Positions 27,758-43,395 of a stretch of DNA of 43,395 bases are shown here, one piece after another (the first letter of the stretch is position 1; each line of letters opens with the position of its first letter). Made by a program: the position numbers and the translations under genes. Under the pieces are notes generated by a model that saw only the letters and a list, made by a program, of their open reading frames with translations, was not told the origin of the DNA and searched no databases. Source of the stretch: Deltaproteobacteria bacterium (GTDB lineage: Bacteria > Myxococcota_A > Polyangia > HGW-17); NCBI GenBank assembly GCA_016937155.1, contig JAFGWM010000078.1, positions 1-43,395 on the forward strand. The letters run 5' to 3'.

Positions 27758-30700
27758 GTGGCTAGAACAGAAGAAGAACATCGAGAAAATTTTGTTAATG
27801 ATCCAACATCCATGGAATCCTTCAGTGCATTGAGACGTACCTATCAGGGTGATGAACGCTGGGCGGATCTTGCATGGCTTTACAGTGAAAGAGCCAGAGC
27901 TCCCCTTGAGGACAACCGAAAGGCGGACATGTTTTTCAAAGCAGCTGATCTGTATTTTGACCAACTGAATGATGATGCGGCAGGAGTGGATGCACTCTAC
28001 AACGGAGTTCTTCTGGATCCGAGACACCGCAGAAACAGCAGAAAACTGAAGGAGATTCTCAAGGAAAAAAAGGATAACGAAAGATATCTGTATATTCTGG
28101 AAAAAGAAATAGAGCTTCTGGAAGAGCAGGGAACCGATAAAAGAGGTTTAAGTCAACTGCATTTTGAAGCTGGGGAATTATTTTCAGGTCTTGGTGGAAG
28201 AAATGCTGATGCCCTCAAGCATTTCAGGGAATCCTTCAGAAATGATCAGCAGAATGTTAAAGCTTTAAATTGTGCCAGTGAACTACTTGTTTCTGAAAAA
28301 ATGTATGAAGAAGCTCTTCCGTTGCTGGAGTATCAACTGAAGACAATCAGAGAACCCCATGAAAGAGCTGAGAAACTTGAAATAATCGGACGGATAAAAC
28401 TGGAAGAGATAAGAGATGTTATGGCGGCTGAAGCTGCATTAAAAGAGGCTATTTCTCTTGTTCCGGATAAGGTTAAATACCTTTATACCCTTGGAGAGAT
28501 TTATTCAGATCGCAGATATCCTGCACAAGAGGCTCCTCTTAAAAATGCCAGAGTATTTTTGAATATAGCCAGACTCCATCAGCAGTCATCTGAAAACGAA
28601 AAAGCGGTAAATGCCCTCAAACAGTCAATATCGCTAGATCCTTTTCTTGATGAAAGTTTTTCTCTTCTGGCGACGATATATGAGCAAAATAGTGATTATC
28701 AGGCATTGAGTGATCTCCTTGATAAGGGTGGTCATATACACGAGGGGCAAACCAGACTCAGGTTACTGGTGAAAAGAGCCGCAATACTTGAAACACATCT
28801 TGGTAATCCAGGTGAGGCCAGACGTATATACTTTGAGCTTTTAGAGGAATCTCCCGAATCTATTATTCCAAGACTGGTAATGAGTCTTGAAAAAGAGGAA
28901 AACTATCAGGAACTGGCGAAACTACGGGAAAAAGAGCTCACTCTATACAGGGATAATACAAAAATTGTTGAAACAAGACTGTCCCTTGTGAGACTTTTCA
29001 GGGATCACCTTAATCGTCCGGACAAAGCAGCCGGCCATATTCATGAGATTCTGACCATTGAACCGGAAAATCTTGAAGCTCTGGATCTGTACATCACTCA
29101 TTTCAGAGAGAAGGGTGATCGCAAATCCCAGGTGGATACCATGGAATTTGCCCTTGAAGTCGCCAGGAAACAGAGGGCTTCCAAGGAATATGTCATTTCA
29201 GTTCTGAAGGAGATGGCTGACATATATCACAGACATCTTGGAGATTTAGGGAAGACTGAAAGATGCCTTTCAATGCTCGCACGAATTGAACCGGAAAATG
29301 ATCGGTTTCAGCAAGCACTGGCAAAAATAGTGCAGAAAAGGGAAATGTGGGAAGGTTATAAAACCGATCTCATGGCTGACATTGAAAATGCTGCCTCTCA
29401 GGGTGACAAAATATATGCCATGAAAAACCTTGCTTCAGCTCTCAGTGAACGACGTCTGGATGTTAGTCTGAATATTAAACTTTATCAGGAAATCCTTGGG
29501 ATGGATCCAACGGATGAGGATGCTTTTTATGGGCTGGAGGATCTTTTCCACAGGGAAGGAGATATGGAAAGCCTTTACCGTATGTATGAGATGCGTCTGG
29601 ATGGTGCAACTCCCGAGCAGCAGGAAGAGATTCTTTCCAGCATGTTTGAACTGGCACGGGAAAAACTTATGGATCCAAATCGGATTGGCAGGACAGCTGC
29701 AAAACTTCTGGAGATAGATCCTTCCCATGAAGAAGCCCTGAAGGCCTTAATTGACAGTCTTGAAGCTTTGGAAAACTGGCCGAAACTCGCCGCTGTTCTG
29801 GAAAAATATGCCAATTCTCTATATGATCCGGCAGAAAAATGTGAATATTTCATTAAAGCAGCTGATGTTTATATGGGTAAACTCAGAAATGAATCTGAGA
29901 CGATCAGACTTTTATCCGGTGTGGTCAGCGAACACTGCTACATGGAAACCACTGTTCCAAGACTTCTTGAATTGTATGAAAAATCAGGTAGGTATGATGA
30001 ATATGTTAAATTAGCTGAGGAATCTATTCATGGAGGCTACTGGCCTGGGGAACCGTCTGAAGAAGGTGACTCGTGGAAAAAAGTGGGCCAGGTCTTCGAG
30101 CGTAATCTGGAAAATCTGGATAAGGCTCTGGAATGCTGGCAGCGGGTTCTTGAGATTGATGAAAATGATTCCGAAGCACTTATATCACTGGCCAGAATTT
30201 CATATTTCACCGAGAGGTGGGATATTTTAGCTGAAACCATGGAAAGACAGGTATCCCTTAGTGAAAATCCCGACCAGAAGCAGAACCTTCTTGGGAAACT
30301 TGCTGACATATATATGGAAAAGCTCTCCCAGCCCGACGATGCACTTCGAATTATTGAGCAGATACCTGAATCTGACAGGGGAGAGGAACTTGAGCAGAAG
30401 CAGGCATCTCTTTATCGGGTACTTGGTGAATCTGAAAAAGCCATATCCCTTTATCAAAAATGGCTTGATAATTCGACAATACCCCAGGACAGGATACGTC
30501 TTCTCCTCGCACTTTCGGATATTTATATCAATGAGCTTCATGAAATGGATAAGGCAAGCGGTGTTCTTGATGAAGTTTTACAGCTGGAACCTTCAAATAT
30601 GGAAGCGTTGAAGCTGCAAAGAAAACTGTGTGTGGAAGAAGGGAAATATGAAAGACTTTCAGAAATATTAAGAACCCTTCTGGATATTTCCAACGATGAT

Positions 30701-33700
30701 GAAGAAATTCTTACTCTTTTTGAGGAACTTGGAGATGTTTATTCCGTCCATCTTGAGGACTTTTCCAATGGCTTTCTGAATTATTTTGAAGCTTTCCGAA
30801 GAGCTCCCCTGAATGAGGAACTGGGTGAAAAAGCTGAAAAAACTGCAAGAGATGGCCAGCTCTACAATGAACTTGTGAAGTATTACAATTATATTCTGGG
30901 TCGGACACAGGACATATATGAAGAAAAGGAATTTCTCACTAAACTAATTGAAGTTCTCGAAATTAAAATGGAGAATCCAAAGAGCGCTATGGATGTGCTC
31001 TCAAGGTATGTTCTGAAATATCCACTTGATGATGAACTTTTAGTTGAAGCTGAACGTGTGGGGAGAACCTTTGAAGAAGGGCGGTTGAGTCTTCTTTCTC
31101 TGTATGAGCATATAATCAATAATATTGATGACAGGGTCAGGAAATCTGAATTTCTGATTACAGCAGCAAAACTCTGTGAAAAGGAAATGAATGATCAACC
31201 TGGGGCTTTAAAGAGATATGAAAGAGCATACAGAGCCAATCCTTTCCATGAGGATCTCATTCCTGAAATAGAACGTCTTTCACGTAATCTTGGCGAGTGG
31301 GATATTTTCAATGCTATTCAGATTCCAGTGTTATCAGCTATGATTGATCCACTGGATAAGGTTGACCATCTGCTGAATGTTGCACAGGTTCTTGAAACAG
31401 AAGCTGGTGCTCCAGTGAGAGCTTTCAGAGTATATCTCCATGCGTTTTTAACTGAACCCGGTAACAGTAAGATAACGGATAATATCTGGCGGTTAGCTGA
31501 AAAGATAAAGCTATACACTGAAGACCAGAGGAAAGAAATTCCCATAAGGAGTGATAGTGTTCTTGTGGGTGGCATTAAAGATTTCCTGCGTGGAGAAGAT
31601 GCATTCAGGGCCCAACTGGCAAAGGGTTCAACCAGAAGGCCTGAAGTAACTCAGGAAATAGATTTTGATGAACTGGAAGTGGTTGAATCATCCTTTCAGG
31701 AGCTGGATCCTGAAGATCTCAGTGAATTCAGAAAATCGGAGATGACTGGACCTACACATTCCCTTACCATGCAGGATTTGCTTGAATCCAGAACCGGAAG
31801 TTATCAGGAGGTAAGTCAGGTTATAGAGGAATATGGTGGTGATGTCAGTTATAAATCAGTCACAGAAGTGGCCAGTTCTGAGATGGGCGGAGTTATTGGA
31901 AGTAACGGAGAACTACCTCCTCCGGAATCTCCATGGGAGGAGTTTGCAAGAGCCTGGGCTATGCTTCCAAGCAAGGACACTTCTGAAAGAGTCAGCCATC
32001 TCAAGGAAATGGCAAGGATCTGGCTGGACGGAGCTCAGGAACCTCAAAAAGCATTCAATGTGTTTGGAAGAGCATTCACTATTAATCCGGCCGATGAAGA
32101 GGTGGCTTCCAATATATATGAAATTGCCGGAAAACTTCAGAGTGTTGACAAACTGGCATTTTTATATTCCAAGGTAGCCTCACAGAGCAGCAATGAACTT
32201 GCAATCGAGCTTTATAGTGTGGCCGCCGGATATTTTCGTGAGCTTGGGGATGCTCCCCATGAAGAGGATATGCTTAGAGCAATTCTAGCCCTCGAACCAG
32301 GGCACGAAAAAGCTTATGAGGATCTCCTTGAAAAACTAAGAAAAGAAAGTGCATGGAACGATATCTTAGCTCTAATGGAATGGAGATTTGATTTATTCCG
32401 TTCAGAAATGTCCCTTGAGGATATACAGAATTTCTATCTTGATATGGCCAGACTGAATGAAGAAAAGGTATTCAATCCTGATGCAGCATTGATTTTCCGT
32501 TTGAAGTATCTGGAAAATGAACCAGATCATGTTGAAAGTCTCGAAAAAGTTGTTTCTCTGGGAACCACTATCAATGCTTGGGGAAAAGTTGCAGAAGCTT
32601 TGAGAAAACTAGCTGATATCAGTGATGATGAAAGTACTATTGTTTCCACACTCATGCATCTTGCTTCAATTTCTGGAAATGAACTGGAACTTCCAGATCA
32701 GGCTATTAATGTGTACCGTGAAGTGATTTCAATAGACAGTTCAAATCTGGATGCTCTGAATGCACTGGATTCACTTTATGTGGTACATGAACTCTGGGAG
32801 GAACTGGAGAATATTCTTATAAAACTTTCTGCCATGGAGGAGGACCCCAATAAAAACAGGGTTTTCAAAGACAGAATGTGTGAAGTTCTCGAGAAGCTTG
32901 ATAGAGAGGAAGAAGCCGCAGTTATATATAAGGAACTGTGGGAGCAGACCAGAGAAACACGTTATGCAGTTAGAGCATCCAACATGTACATGGAGATGGG
33001 TGAACCTTCAGCAGGAGTGGAGATTTTATCAAATCTTCTCAGCAGTGATGAGGCTCAATATGGAGCTGCCGAAAAAGCATCCATGTGGACGAATCTTGCT
33101 AAAATACAGAAAAGAAGTCTGAAGGACATGATCAGTGCAAGAAAATCACTTGAAAATGCACTGGAATTATCTCCCGATCATATAGAATCTCTAAATATGC
33201 TGAGTGAAATTCAGTATGAGGACAGGGACTGGGAAAAATTTGTACAGACTCAGTTACATATCTCGGAAGTCACCGATGATCAGGATGAAAAACAGTCATG
33301 TCTGTTTATCGCAGGGCGAACATGTCGTGATGAGTTGGCGGATATAGAAAAGGCTGAGCAGTATTTTGACAGAGTGGTAAAACTGAATGCAGGTCATATG
33401 GATGCAATTATGGCACTTCAGAGCATATATGAAATGCAGCAGAATTTCACAAGAGTTTACGAGATTATCAGTGTTAGACTGAAAAATGTCACATCTCCTT
33501 CTGAAATTGCAAAGCTTTTGAGTTCTCAGGCCTATATTGCACTTAATAACTTCAATGATGATGAGCTCGCATACAGACTTCTGACGGAAGCACTAGGACA
33601 TGATCAGAGCAGTGTGGACGCAATACTGACTTTAGCTGATCTTGCTCAGGCAAGAGAAGAATGGGAACAGGCAAGTGATCTCCTGGAAAATGCCCTGAAG

Positions 33701-35812
33701 AAAACAAGAGATGAACCTGAAAAATCTGCCCGCCTTGGCAGGCGATATGCCCAGTTGATGGACATGCAGGGAAAAGCTGAAAACGCCGTTACTCTCCTTC
33801 AGGAGCTGGATCGAAAATATCCTGATGAGCTTTTAATTAAACTTACACTTGGAGAGATAAGATTTAAATCAGGACGCTGGAGGGAGACAGTTAAAATTCT
33901 TTCGGGTCTTGGTGATCATCCCATGGTAAGTGAATATCCCGAAGAAGTTGCAGCTGCACTATGTATGGCTGCAACAAGTGAAATGAAGCAGCGGAAGGGA
34001 TTCTTGCCGAGGGAGCTATGGGAAACTGCTGTTAAGATCAAACCTGATTATCTTCCGGCTATTGAGAGTCTTATTGAATATCATCTCAGCAGGGGTGAAG
34101 AAGTTGAGGGCGCCACTTATCTCAAGGCACAGGCAGAGGCTGCGGAATCTTCAGAGGTTAGAATCAAGCTGTTCAGATCATTAGCTGATCTTTACAGGGA
34201 TAAACTGAGAAAACCTGATCTGGCTCTTGACTGTTATCTGGAATGCTACAACCTGCTGGATTATGTTACTGAAGATGAACAGGAACTTCTAAAAATAATT
34301 GCTGACATCGCATCAGAGCGGGGAAGGCTTAATGAGGTTTACGAAATTCTGAAGGATCTGATCAGTTTTGTTCCTGAAAGTGAAAAGATGAATTATCTTA
34401 TCATGGCCGGGGATGTGGCACTTTCCAGAGGTCTTGTGGATGAAGCAGCATCCTGGCTTGAAGACGCACAAAAAAGAGCTCCGGCAAACGAAAAGGTTCT
34501 TCTGGCTCTCAGCGAGTTATACGAAAAATCAGGAAAGACCCTTCAGGCAGTATCCACTCTGGAAACTCTTCTGGACAGAAAAACCGGACTTATGGCGGAA
34601 GAGGGCAGAAGAAGTTCAATACAGGGTCGACTTGGAAGATTATACAGTGAACTGGGTGACGATGAAAAAGCATGTCTGATTCTTGAAGAGTGCCTGGCAT
34701 CAGATGAACCATGCCTTGACTATCAGAAACTGATAGTGAGTATTTACGACAGAACCGGTGTAAATCCGGAAAGACTAGCATTCCATCAGAACAAGTTATT
34801 ATCCAGTCATCCTGTTAATCCTCAACTGATAAAACTTCTGGCTGATAATGCTCTTAAATCAGGGGATCATAGTGCCGGCTATCTTTATTGTCAGTTGCTG
34901 GATGTTATGCAGCAGCCTTTTGAGGAACATCAACAGTTCTATAATGAACAAAACAGCTTCATTTCCCGGGTTGAATTATCGTGGGATGGAAGACTTGATG
35001 AAAATGATCGTGAACTCCTCAGTGCAGGTGCTGATACTCATGGCATGACAGAAATTTTTGAAGCTCTATGGGAAGCGGCACCATCTATTTTCGGTACTGA
35101 TCTCAGTTCACTGGGGCTTTATGCATCAGACAAAGTCAGTCCCGTTGATAAATCGGATCTCGCAATAATATACAGTGAGGTCAGTAAGGTGCTTGGGGAT
35201 CGTAAAACCGGGTTATACATGGGTCGTGATAAATACAGCGGTGTTACAGTCGCCTGCCATGCACCACCACTGATAGTGATTGGTGATGATACAATAACTA
35301 ACAATCCTTCCACCCTCCGTTTCCTTCTGGCCAGATCCATAATGCTTGCAAATCCAAGATTCATTATGGCTGCAGGTTTTTATCCGGAGGAATTTTCCAA
35401 ATTCATCAGTGCTTTAATGAGGGCGTTTCATCCGAAATATTCGAGACGGCAGTTTAAAACTCTGGATCCAATCGATGAAAAAGCCTCGCAGTTGAAAAAT
35501 CAGGTGCCCTATCGTGTAAGCAAATCTATAATTGATATGTTAGCTGAAACCGGGGAACAGGAATTTAACAGTGGGCACTGGCGCAGAAATGTCTGGATGA
35601 TCGGAAACAGAGCCGGTCTGCTTCTTAGTGGAGATCTCAAAGAAGTGATTAGGCTACTGGTATATGAAGAGACTGGAGATATAACAGACGGAACTGCTAC
35701 ACCGGAAAAACTTCTTGAATATTCAGAAAAGGTGCCTGCTATAAGGGATATTCTCTCCTTCCATATCTCTCCCACCAATATGAAGTTGCGAGAAAAACTC
35801 CTTGGGAGATGA
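27758..35812 (+). CDS. Giant tetratricopeptide-repeat protein (2684 residues)
   Basis: Translation starts at a GTG with a strong AGGAGGT five bases upstream; no nearby ATG competes. The 2684-residue protein has no signal peptide or membrane segment. Most of it is repeated helical pairs of TPR type, with signatures such as LFRKALxLDPxxxxAL and LAxIYExxxxYxxL, in an N-terminal block (about 1-1285) and a second block (about 1390-2400). Between them is a disordered acidic linker (about 1290-1387) with ESPWEEF at its end. The last 280 residues form a globular domain (TGLYMGRDKYSGVTVACHAPP, then RFLLARSIMLANPRFIMAAGF) of the kind that ends large TPR proteins of myxobacteria-like genomes; no catalytic motif is visible. 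It probably acts as a cytoplasmic scaffold. It has no operon partner. Confidence 0.9.
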   Translation: MARTEEEHRENFVNDPTSMESFSALRRTYQGDERWADLAWLYSERARAPLEDNRKADMFFKAADLYFDQLNDDAAGVDALYNGVLLDPRHRRNSRKLKEILKEKKDNERYLYILEKEIELLEEQGTDKRGLSQLHFEAGELFSGLGGRNADALKHFRESFRNDQQNVKALNCASELLVSEKMYEEALPLLEYQLKTIREPHERAEKLEIIGRIKLEEIRDVMAAEAALKEAISLVPDKVKYLYTLGEIYSDRRYPAQEAPLKNARVFLNIARLHQQSSENEKAVNALKQSISLDPFLDESFSLLATIYEQNSDYQALSDLLDKGGHIHEGQTRLRLLVKRAAILETHLGNPGEARRIYFELLEESPESIIPRLVMSLEKEENYQELAKLREKELTLYRDNTKIVETRLSLVRLFRDHLNRPDKAAGHIHEILTIEPENLEALDLYITHFREKGDRKSQVDTMEFALEVARKQRASKEYVISVLKEMADIYHRHLGDLGKTERCLSMLARIEPENDRFQQALAKIVQKREMWEGYKTDLMADIENAASQGDKIYAMKNLASALSERRLDVSLNIKLYQEILGMDPTDEDAFYGLEDLFHREGDMESLYRMYEMRLDGATPEQQEEILSSMFELAREKLMDPNRIGRTAAKLLEIDPSHEEALKALIDSLEALENWPKLAAVLEKYANSLYDPAEKCEYFIKAADVYMGKLRNESETIRLLSGVVSEHCYMETTVPRLLELYEKSGRYDEYVKLAEESIHGGYWPGEPSEEGDSWKKVGQVFERNLENLDKALECWQRVLEIDENDSEALISLARISYFTERWDILAETMERQVSLSENPDQKQNLLGKLADIYMEKLSQPDDALRIIEQIPESDRGEELEQKQASLYRVLGESEKAISLYQKWLDNSTIPQDRIRLLLALSDIYINELHEMDKASGVLDEVLQLEPSNMEALKLQRKLCVEEGKYERLSEILRTLLDISNDDEEILTLFEELGDVYSVHLEDFSNGFLNYFEAFRRAPLNEELGEKAEKTARDGQLYNELVKYYNYILGRTQDIYEEKEFLTKLIEVLEIKMENPKSAMDVLSRYVLKYPLDDELLVEAERVGRTFEEGRLSLLSLYEHIINNIDDRVRKSEFLITAAKLCEKEMNDQPGALKRYERAYRANPFHEDLIPEIERLSRNLGEWDIFNAIQIPVLSAMIDPLDKVDHLLNVAQVLETEAGAPVRAFRVYLHAFLTEPGNSKITDNIWRLAEKIKLYTEDQRKEIPIRSDSVLVGGIKDFLRGEDAFRAQLAKGSTRRPEVTQEIDFDELEVVESSFQELDPEDLSEFRKSEMTGPTHSLTMQDLLESRTGSYQEVSQVIEEYGGDVSYKSVTEVASSEMGGVIGSNGELPPPESPWEEFARAWAMLPSKDTSERVSHLKEMARIWLDGAQEPQKAFNVFGRAFTINPADEEVASNIYEIAGKLQSVDKLAFLYSKVASQSSNELAIELYSVAAGYFRELGDAPHEEDMLRAILALEPGHEKAYEDLLEKLRKESAWNDILALMEWRFDLFRSEMSLEDIQNFYLDMARLNEEKVFNPDAALIFRLKYLENEPDHVESLEKVVSLGTTINAWGKVAEALRKLADISDDESTIVSTLMHLASISGNELELPDQAINVYREVISIDSSNLDALNALDSLYVVHELWEELENILIKLSAMEEDPNKNRVFKDRMCEVLEKLDREEEAAVIYKELWEQTRETRYAVRASNMYMEMGEPSAGVEILSNLLSSDEAQYGAAEKASMWTNLAKIQKRSLKDMISARKSLENALELSPDHIESLNMLSEIQYEDRDWEKFVQTQLHISEVTDDQDEKQSCLFIAGRTCRDELADIEKAEQYFDRVVKLNAGHMDAIMALQSIYEMQQNFTRVYEIISVRLKNVTSPSEIAKLLSSQAYIALNNFNDDELAYRLLTEALGHDQSSVDAILTLADLAQAREEWEQASDLLENALKKTRDEPEKSARLGRRYAQLMDMQGKAENAVTLLQELDRKYPDELLIKLTLGEIRFKSGRWRETVKILSGLGDHPMVSEYPEEVAAALCMAATSEMKQRKGFLPRELWETAVKIKPDYLPAIESLIEYHLSRGEEVEGATYLKAQAEAAESSEVRIKLFRSLADLYRDKLRKPDLALDCYLECYNLLDYVTEDEQELLKIIADIASERGRLNEVYEILKDLISFVPESEKMNYLIMAGDVALSRGLVDEAASWLEDAQKRAPANEKVLLALSELYEKSGKTLQAVSTLETLLDRKTGLMAEEGRRSSIQGRLGRLYSELGDDEKACLILEECLASDEPCLDYQKLIVSIYDRTGVNPERLAFHQNKLLSSHPVNPQLIKLLADNALKSGDHSAGYLYCQLLDVMQQPFEEHQQFYNEQNSFISRVELSWDGRLDENDRELLSAGADTHGMTEIFEALWEAAPSIFGTDLSSLGLYASDKVSPVDKSDLAIIYSEVSKVLGDRKTGLYMGRDKYSGVTVACHAPPLIVIGDDTITNNPSTLRFLLARSIMLANPRFIMAAGFYPEEFSKFISALMRAFHPKYSRRQFKTLDPIDEKASQLKNQVPYRVSKSIIDMLAETGEQEFNSGHWRRNVWMIGNRAGLLLSGDLKEVIRLLVYEETGDITDGTATPEKLLEYSEKVPAIRDILSFHISPTNMKLREKLLGR

Positions 35813-41457: not shown

Positions 41458-42519
41458 TCAGGGAACTGAGAGCCACTCGGAAGGATAGGGCACCCATGGG
41501 GTTTCGGATAGGACTGTGAGTTTTTCTGTTATTGTTTTATTTCCATTAACAGGTTTTACATGGTACCACCACCACTTTTGTGTTTCCAGGTGCCATGCCC
41601 CGAAAAAGAAATAGTTATCTGTAACTCTAATTACACCGAAATCCTTTTGTGAGTGTTTTACACTTCCTATGTTGTATACATCAAATCCCTTCCATTTGTA
41701 GTATCCACTTCCGTGGAAATGTCCGTGCAAAATAGCCAGAATGTTAAATTCTTTAATTATATTGTATAAAGACTCTGTGTATGTATCAGCAGTAAACCAG
41801 GTTTTACTGTAAGGTCCGTATAGAGGAAAATGCATAAACAGTATGACTGGTCGGTTTTTCCCGGTGCGGGCCAGGATTTTCATAAGTTTTTTCAGATCCT
41901 GCTGTGAAGGTGCTTCTCCAAGTGCCACTATCCTCAGATCATTGAAATCCCGGAAGTATAGTGTTCCACCCTGACGCTGATTCATTCTGGTAAGAGTGTA
42001 GGCTCTGTTTCTCAGATCGTGATTTCCCGGAATATCAAAAACAGGGAATTTAAGTTTTCCATCTTTTCCTGTCAGTCCGAATAACCGTGTATATTCAATC
42101 CATTGGTTGTCATATCCATTTTGTGTAAGATCTCCACAGACAATTACTCCGGAAGGGATGGGAACTTTTTGATTAAATACAGGTAGAAATTTGTCTGAAA
42201 TGGTATTCATGGATTCAATCAGTTTTAATATCCATGGTCTTATTGGCGTACATGTTTTAAGTATTTTTCCATCCTTCTTCAGGCTCCAGTTGCAGCTTTT
42301 TGATCCAACATGGATGTCAGAAGCAACAAGAAGTGTTGCATCAAGATTTCCTTTTCGTGGTACTTTTTTTATTGTATGTGTTTTTCCATACCAGGTTAGT
42401 ATCTCTTTGGGAAGAGTTCTCAGATATCCTATAAGAAAAAAAGTAAGAATAATAATGAGTAAACCCATTTCAATTTTAATTCTCGAACTCATTAAAAATT
42501 TTGTTTTATTCGGTTTCAT
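41458..42519 (-). CDS. Membrane-anchored metallophosphoesterase
   Basis: The 353-residue protein (ATG at 42519; in-frame ATGs at 42549 and 42492 are alternatives) has an N-terminal hydrophobic helix (about 20-36, LLIIILTFFLIGYL). The calcineurin-like metallophosphoesterase domain follows: SDIHVG, GDLTQNG, GNHDLR, MHFPLYG and GHFHG, the full set of metal ligands for a two-metal site. GNHDLR carries the catalytic His. The domain would face the periplasm. Substrate unknown. The start lies within the last codons of the preceding small membrane protein gene, which points to a two-gene operon. Confidence 0.85.
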   Translation of the reverse strand: MKPNKTKFLMSSRIKIEMGLLIIILTFFLIGYLRTLPKEILTWYGKTHTIKKVPRKGNLDATLLVASDIHVGSKSCNWSLKKDGKILKTCTPIRPWILKLIESMNTISDKFLPVFNQKVPIPSGVIVCGDLTQNGYDNQWIEYTRLFGLTGKDGKLKFPVFDIPGNHDLRNRAYTLTRMNQRQGGTLYFRDFNDLRIVALGEAPSQQDLKKLMKILARTGKNRPVILFMHFPLYGPYSKTWFTADTYTESLYNIIKEFNILAILHGHFHGSGYYKWKGFDVYNIGSVKHSQKDFGVIRVTDNYFFFGAWHLETQKWWWYHVKPVNGNKTITEKLTVLSETPWVPYPSEWLSVP

Positions 42520-42934
42520 TATAATAATCACCGTATAGCAATTTTGCACAGTCAGGACAGACAGTGTGAGTGACTTTGGTGTCAGTGTTCTTCAGTAGAA
42601 AATTCTCAAGAAATTCCCATTCATCATTTGAATTTCTTATCTTTCTGCAGTTAGCACATACAGGAAGGTAGGACTCAAGCTGCTTCATTTTTTTAAGAAT
42701 TTTTGCTGTAAAAAAAATTACAATCGATCCGGTTATCAATACAAATACAGTTTCCAGTAATGATTCCCGCCAGTTAACAGGAGTTGCAGGGGCGCCCAGA
42801 ACAAGAGCAGGAAGATCAAATAGTTCATCCAGCCACAGCATGATAATAATTACCAAAAAACCGAAAAATTCTATTAGAGGAAGATATTTAATTAAAATAG
42901 GTTCCGTGGAATTAGGTTTGGATCTGACTTTCAT
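42506..42934 (-). CDS. Small membrane protein with CxxC...CxxC tail
   Basis: The start at 42934 is chosen because GGAGGA precedes it; the frame is also open from 42973. The 142-residue protein has two membrane helices (about 18-36 and 58-78), then a short cytoplasmic tail with CANCRKIRNSNDEWEFLENF and VCPDC. This CxxCxxIR-W-E-CxxC tail usually ends sensor kinases and other signalling proteins and probably binds zinc; here it stands with only a membrane part. A TATAAT at 42972-42977 lies about 40 bases upstream and may be its -10 box. The tandem array begins about 55 bases further upstream. It overlaps the metallophosphoesterase gene by about 14 bases. Confidence 0.7.
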   Translation of the reverse strand: MKVRSKPNSTEPILIKYLPLIEFFGFLVIIIMLWLDELFDLPALVLGAPATPVNWRESLLETVFVLITGSIVIFFTAKILKKMKQLESYLPVCANCRKIRNSNDEWEFLENFLLKNTDTKVTHTVCPDCAKLLYGDYYNETE

Positions 42935-43030
42935 AATTTCTTCCTCCGGAATAAATAGTTTCGCAAGTATCATTATACCCGTGAATATTTCAAAATTTTA
43001 CAAATGTTTTACGTTTTAATAATAATAATG

Positions 43031-43395
43031 AAAAACCAACCCGGGAGGAGAAAAACCAACCCGGGAGGAGAAAAAATAACCCGGGAGAAAAAATAACCAA
43101 GGAGGAGAAGAAATAACCAGGGAGAAAAAAACAAAGCAGGGAGAAAAACAAAGCAGGGAGAAAAACCAACCCGGGAGGAGAAAACAAAGCAGGGAGAAAA
43201 AAATAACCCGGGAGGAGAAAAAATAACCCGGGAGGAGAAAAAATAACCCGGGAGAAAAAATAACCCGGGAGGAGAAAAACAAAGCAGGGAGAAAAAAATA
43301 ACCCGGGAGGAGAAAAAATAACCCGGGAGGAGAAAAACAAAGCAGGGAGAAAAACCAACCCGGGAGGAGAAAAAATAACCTGGGAGAAAAACAAA
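43031..43395. repeat. Mosaic tandem array of A/G-rich units, cut by the window edge
   Basis: At least 19 head-to-tail units of 16-21 bases follow one another, and a twentieth is cut off. Each is an A-run, a short core and GGGAG or GGGAGGAG. Three cores occur: CCAACCC (units 1, 2, 8, 18), ATAACCC with ATAACCA or ATAACCT variants (units 3, 4, 5, 10-13, 15, 16, 19) and CAAAGCA (units 6, 7, 9, 14, 17). The order is mixed, not simply periodic. Cores with CCCGGG contain a SmaI site. The array starts after an AAT run (43018-43029). No reading frame is credible. It lies upstream of the gene at 42934. Confidence 0.9.

Follow-up and report, generated by a model that had tools for sequence, protein, structure and literature searches.

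A purine-rich minisatellite at a contig end of a deltaproteobacterial genome and its probable origin from RAYT/TIRYT-type terminal repeats

Introduction

In TIRtrons, or TIRYTs, the gene for a REP-associated tyrosine transposase (RAYT) has TIRs on its flanks, and these make up families, dimers and clusters (PMC3733652). Many of these TIRs, but not all, contain the motif GGGGWSAS, and since unrelated TIRs have also been reported (PMC3733652) this motif does not define the TIRYT group as a whole. Tandem REP clusters that include flanking DNA are likewise known (PMC3733652, PMC3116915), and TnpA-REP proteins perform cleavage and strand transfer in vitro (PMC8266576). In TnpAREP subclass 2.1, to which most TIRYTs belong, a search near the gene yielded no REP-like sequences (PMC6006769).

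Here we describe a repeat array at the right edge of a 43,395-nucleotide stretch of DNA (the window) from a Deltaproteobacteria bacterium, corresponding to contig C42 in a genome (G000) of 4.1 Mb and 85 contigs, together with the family to which the array belongs. Similar to TIRtrons and TIRYTs, elements of this family in other genomes have a RAYT-like HUH Y1 gene and inverted terminal repeats that also occur separately as families, dimers and clusters. However, the family's motif, (Y)AACC(C/T)GGG preceded by an A-rich lead, differs from GGGGWSAS, which we did not see in the element ends read in this genome, its sister species or the distant genome G238; moreover its ends expand to long unidirectional arrays of 17-46 bp units, and the long C-terminus of its protein gave no match to an HTH domain of Pfam. 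Similar to REP/BIME/REPIN systems with their RAYTs (PMC3116915, PMC8266576), the units are intergenic, multicopy, RAYT-linked and clustered in tandem with flanking DNA, but classical REPs are palindromes tagged with GTAG or similar and BIMEs alternate in orientation, whereas the units here run head to tail, are purine-rich and are weakly or not palindromic. What they have of a REP is the many intergenic copies linked to a RAYT, and not the palindromic hairpin or the GTAG tag. The Y1 elements of the IS200/IS605 family share the HUH/Tyr nuclease superfamily with those described here, but end in subterminal hairpins with guide tetranucleotides (PMC8266576), and the transposase here is of a different subgroup with a long C-terminal domain. 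Bacterial VNTRs and minisatellites are likewise tandem, variable in copy number and rich in block duplications, yet the arrays here have one seed motif, a transposon terminus.

Results

The array in the window

43031 to 43395, + strand: head-to-tail array of 19 full units and 1 partial unit, 16-21 bp, each an A-run followed by (Y)AACC(C/T)GGGAG(GAG) or CAAAGCAGGGAG
43181 to 43242, + strand: exact 62-bp multi-unit block, copy 1 (offset 95)
43276 to 43337, + strand: exact 62-bp multi-unit block, copy 2 (offset 95)

All units start with an A run and end with GGAG or GGAGGAG, and because the contig end cuts the array, the 19 full and 1 partial units are a lower bound on its length. Between start and end we found three core types, CCAACCCGGGAGGAG, TAACCCGGGAG with or without GAG, and CAAAGCAGGGAG; counted by main unit core there are four copies of CCAACCCGGGAGGAG, five of TAACCCGGGAGGAG, two of TAACCCGGGAG and five of CAAAGCAGGGAG, with the variants TAACCAAGGAGGAG, TAACCAGGGAG and TAACCTGGGAG present once each. 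Reading the units directly thus bore out what the sequence-only reading had described, namely a poly-A start, a GGGAG(GAG) ending and three cores in irregular order over 16-21 bp. The TRF score of the array is 343-450, and its purine share is 81%, against a maximum of 62% in equal-size stretches elsewhere in the window.

Exact copies of 62 bp (offset 95), 46 bp (offset 58) and 45 bp (offset 189) lie inside the array and indicate that blocks of several units were duplicated, in keeping with the earlier suggestion of unequal exchange or shuffling over single-unit slippage. The order of unit labels alone is weakly non-random (p = 0.04 for repeated pairs, repeated triplets not significant). Triplex DNA, also proposed, finds little to build on in a longest pure purine run of 15 nt, and the idea of GGAGG as a Shine-Dalgarno sequence fails, since no start codon stands within 14 nt after any GGAGG of the array. 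The window units have no GGTT arm and so, unlike classical REPs, form no hairpin (fold -0.1 kcal/mol, no better than shuffles); they contain no GTAG, and their GGAG lies 3' of the core and has no stem. We found no G-quadruplex in the window array, one being possible in some related arrays (G238, C27), and neither Rfam nor the viral contigs searched gave a match to it. A CRISPR array was considered and rejected, since the units abut and no spacers separate them. Elsewhere in this genome a CRISPR-like repeat, GCTTCAATGGGGCCACTTCTCTTTGGAAGTGGAAAT, with variable sequence between its copies, is present at G000:C84:253769-254308 and C75:44-445 (L122).

Neighbouring gene and rest of the window

42506 to 42934, - strand: gene closest to the array; its 142-aa product has two CxxC pairs and hydrophobic, probably membrane, segments
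42972 to 42977, - strand: TATAAT, possible -10 of the 42934 gene
690 to 1042, - strand: tmRNA gene, the sole Rfam match in the window (gathering score)
1128 to 1139, + strand: single terminal core AACTAACCTGGG / AAAAACTAACCTGGGGGGG, at the window's opposite end, with about 90 bp between it and the tmRNA gene

The array lies upstream of the 42934 gene, about 97 bp from its start codon, and a GGAGG Shine-Dalgarno sequence immediately precedes the ATG. A putative -10 box had been placed 55-60 bases from the array; TATAAT is indeed present at a close distance, about 53 bp, and no convincing -35 accompanies it. Promoter-like sites near the array numbered 3, compared with 1.9 expected in shuffles, which is chance level. 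The one syntenic site in a relative is on a GC-rich G006 contig of doubtful origin. The window also holds a 2684-aa open frame, mostly TPR repeats, at 27758-35812 (+).

A family of arrays with a common core

We examined 2.48 of the 4.11 Mb of the genome base by base, nearly every contig end included, and ran TRF. Two or more copies of AACC[C/T/A]GGG were found in 22/34 intergenic tandem arrays as against 1/77 arrays in reading frames (Fisher p ~1e-13), a count that treats as intergenic the arrays of the window and of C43, in which the open frame on the pyrimidine strand is a product of composition. In all, about two dozen arrays of this bacterium carry the terminal core, most of them at contig ends. 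Their units measure 17-20, 35, 37, 39, 45-47 or 55 bp and have as their constant part an A-run with AACC(C/T)GGG, the remainder often being unrelated from array to array. The core AACTAACCTGGG occurs 86 times genome-wide and its reversed control not once, and the chance that a 20-mer unit drawn at random from the composition of the array contains the core is p = 0.0006.

A search for the window units elsewhere, as had been advised, gave matches at C74, C52 and C17 of the same genome and in 0/95 relatives. Two units of the window array align at 86% over 41 bp with the double end motif of C17 and C80, and C52 and C74, with 37-bp units in common and ends that face one another, seem to be opposite sides of one further body-less array. 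Two-unit arrays also lie well inside contigs (C13:3273-3317 and C43:4836-4881). The 35 matches of a 17-mer scan of genome_contigs were at chance level, and TRF with motif clustering identified no related intergenic array there.

The core as the terminus of multicopy elements

Contig ends, 0.11 Mb of the sequence read, contain 161 matches to a looser core pattern, compared with 28 in the 2.37 Mb of contig interior. In 40/46 ends repeated body DNA lies outward and unique DNA inward immediately after the core (p = 3e-7, counting insertions as separate, although copies of one element are related), which shows that the core is directional and marks where multicopy elements terminate. These elements fall into at least seven body classes with little in common beyond the end (A, B, C, D, E, F/G and J), and we count about 13 ends of class A, 6 of B, 2 of C, about 16 of D (the 45-bp arrays) and 5 of J; classes B, C, D, E and J are represented by their ends alone. 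Within class D the number of units varies from about 4 to 11 between copies that share one body, each array stopping at the core with differing unique DNA after it, and altogether some fifteen arrays stop at the core and pass into unrelated unique DNA. Short-read assembly of a multicopy element whose end bears an array of variable number would give this picture. C20 contains a small deletion derivative that carries both element ends. Stems of 4-5 bp in the 45-bp-array unit and the sister-species ends are weak and not clearly better than shuffles.

At G000:C45:75628-76227 the terminal core adjoins a tyrosine-recombinase (Phage_integrase) stretch that is apparently truncated, as if split by an insertion. 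A tyrosine-recombinase fragment at C45R had prompted an integron/attC reading; judged by eye the ends misfit attC boxes, and the reading was replaced by the RAYT link.

The link to RAYT genes

Class-A bodies open with a reading frame ending DHDVYFPPGTNQMYETHGVRISQLAIERLKMET, and those at C13, C55, C57, C33 and C34 encode the C-terminus DHDVYFPPGTNQMYETHG. This C-terminus is homologous to proteins of 335-347 aa in the sister species G001 and to a 326-aa protein in G002. The homologues match the NCBIfam REP-associated tyrosine transposase model (REP_Tyr_transpos, 6.6e-12), with RAYT matches to NF047646 at 45-65 bits against a curated cut-off of 80 bits, and they keep the HUH motif (NHYH) and Tyr-x3-NP. 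Pfam gave no match for the homologues, and the sequence search found no PDB relative. As Pfam Y1_Tnp has no match in this genome either, the RAYT link is drawn from sister-species protein homology and the NCBIfam model. The bin contains no complete class-A RAYT gene, and what it does contain are C-termini at contig ends, a divergent copy at C7 and broken copies. The C7 copy (G000:C7:1850-2749, L058) is a 384-aa RAYT homologue with HSH in place of HYH, and just upstream of it, beside the left end of an element, is a phage-integrase-like coding fragment.

In G001 the alignment of two RAYT elements (L227 and L229) spans 1.54 kb at 86% identity and has its limits exactly at AACC(N2)CCGGGGT and AACCCCGGACGGTT. 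The ends of L227, AACCGTCCGGGGTT and AACCCCGGACGGTT, are perfect inverted copies situated at these exact homology limits, and the pattern AACCC(C/G)GGN(C/G)GGTT occurs 15 times in G001 and never reversed. A RAYT of another type at G001:C103, 65% identical to the 384-aa C7 copy, has the terminus (AATATAAAAAATCAACCCGGG)x2, a 21-bp tandem duplication close to the window units.

Among 188 other genomes of the phylum we found the core in one, G238, which belongs to another family and has 54-59% GC. At G238:C96 a 324-aa RAYT has inverted tandem pairs of AACCTGGG on both flanks, upstream as CCAGGTTGATT (read as CCACCCAGGTTGATTTCC...CCACCCAGGTTGATTTTT) and downstream, in the opposite orientation, as AATCAACCTGGGAGAGAAATGACGGGAGAAACTAACCTGGGAGGG. 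Solo arrays of AAAAACTAACCTGGGTGGG lie elsewhere in G238, for instance between genes that by their sequence resemble tyrS and a DsbD-like gene. A second Y1/RAYT-type transposase gene of this genome, at G238:C170 (L273), is flanked by GGGGCGAATTATCATTCGCCCCTACG-type repeats and apparently belongs to another REP-like family.

Taken together, a RAYT-like HUH Y1 gene stands between the repeats in the relatives' elements and is connected with the class-A ends here through their C-termini; the inverted motif is at both ends of L227 and G238:C96. The window array, up to the point where the contig stops, has no such gene attached and one side only. The sequences thus fail the REP definition and fit a TIR/RAYT definition only through the relatives and the class-A ends, which suggests that they work like RAYT/TIRYT terminal repeats. 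The array had been said to match no known repeat class; we place it instead in a genome-wide family whose core is a RAYT/TIRYT-type element end.

Discussion

The presence of the core in the window array, its alignment with the C17 and C80 ends and its body-less state lead us to interpret it as a solo tandem array of RAYT/TIRYT-type (HUH Y1) terminal repeats, grown by block duplication, an origin that we consider probable. That it is body-less follows on the left from a flank of unique DNA, and since the right side runs off the contig, no RAYT body is attached to it, which counts against this origin, as do its orientation, the minority one (6/46 ends), the missing GGTT arm, the lack of a complete class-A RAYT gene in the bin and the NF047646 scores below the cut-off. 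On this reading the RAYT/TIRYT-type elements end in an A-rich stretch, (Y)AACC(C/T)GGG and then a G-rich tail, and a single terminus repeatedly turns into a head-to-tail array, both on copies of the element and body-less in intergenic DNA; the window array probably derives from such an end. A Y1 nuclease might nick the terminus and strand transfer or template switching enlarge the array, such growth by copying after single-strand nicking being suggested by the in-vitro cleavage and strand transfer of TnpA-REP (PMC8266576), and later unequal exchange, which would explain the block copies, might then copy several units at a time. In sister strains, the junction with an empty site would be expected at AACCCGGG.

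An ordinary intergenic minisatellite (VNTR), formed from local purine-rich DNA by slippage or unequal exchange and unconnected with transposons, with a core that is coincidental or prone to slippage, is in our view unlikely. The window array indeed has short purine-rich units and no attached element body, recombination alone yields block duplications, and the genome is rich in coding minisatellites. However, the core is common to intergenic arrays that are otherwise unrelated (units of 35, 37, 39, 45-47 and 55 bp), is nearly absent from coding arrays (p ~1e-13, as above) and recurs at the ends of RAYT elements in two other genomes. Still less probable is a repeat kept for host use, such as an array of binding sites or a multi-copy regulatory or RNA element that tunes the adjacent gene. 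The array is intergenic and about 97 bp upstream of a start codon, and a very similar motif forms arrays between housekeeping genes in the 54-59% GC genome of another family; but the array is found in 0/95 nearest relatives and the core in 1/188 other genomes of the phylum, an absence that makes it patchy like a mobile element, the locations of the arrays are unrelated to any one gene set, there is no Rfam match, and promoter-like sites are no commoner than in shuffles. Most likely, then, the array has no dedicated host role, and any effect on the 42934 gene is incidental. An assembly artefact or contamination, a worry raised by the sequence-only reading in the form of vector or foreign DNA, we regard as very improbable, for although nearly all arrays are at or near contig ends, short-read lengths are unreliable (lower bounds) and the contamination estimate is 2.8%, the units show irregular variants and not one looped k-mer, related arrays with distinct units and different flanks are on many contigs of the same bin, some two-unit ones inside contigs, and the same structure appears in independent genomes, the unrelated one having its own version.

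TIR-flanked RAYT genes and tandem REP clusters with flanking DNA are already known, and what is new here is that the ends are of the AACCYGGG type, are non-palindromic and expand into long minisatellites running in one direction. To RAYT/TIRYT elements this adds a terminal repeat that is not palindromic, runs head to tail and varies in copy number, for a type of transposase with few descriptions of REP-like sequences in its vicinity, and a puzzling bacterial minisatellite becomes tied to a mobile-element family, with a testable cause for where arrays are born. At present we can only speculate that RAYT/TIRYT nucleases manufacture minisatellites, in that single-strand cuts at (Y)AACCYGGG ends copy the terminus and adjoining DNA repeatedly and turn ends into arrays that persist as solo VNTRs, perhaps serving as multi-site landing pads for the nuclease. 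If true, such enzymatic manufacture would be a specific origin for a whole class of bacterial VNTRs.

The terminal arrays also explain where this assembly breaks. Many coding minisatellites are present at other contig ends of G000 (L055, L064, L066, L123, L130 and others), with units that are multiples of 3, several of them 100-340 bp, and belong to cysteine-rich or Asp/Asn-rich repeat proteins. A second intergenic family, AGCAGGGAATCAGGGGCAGGAG..., which has no AACCYGGG core, occurs at G000:C33, C48, C58 and C67 (e.g. C58:3126-3302), and at C48 it directly abuts a class-A element end.
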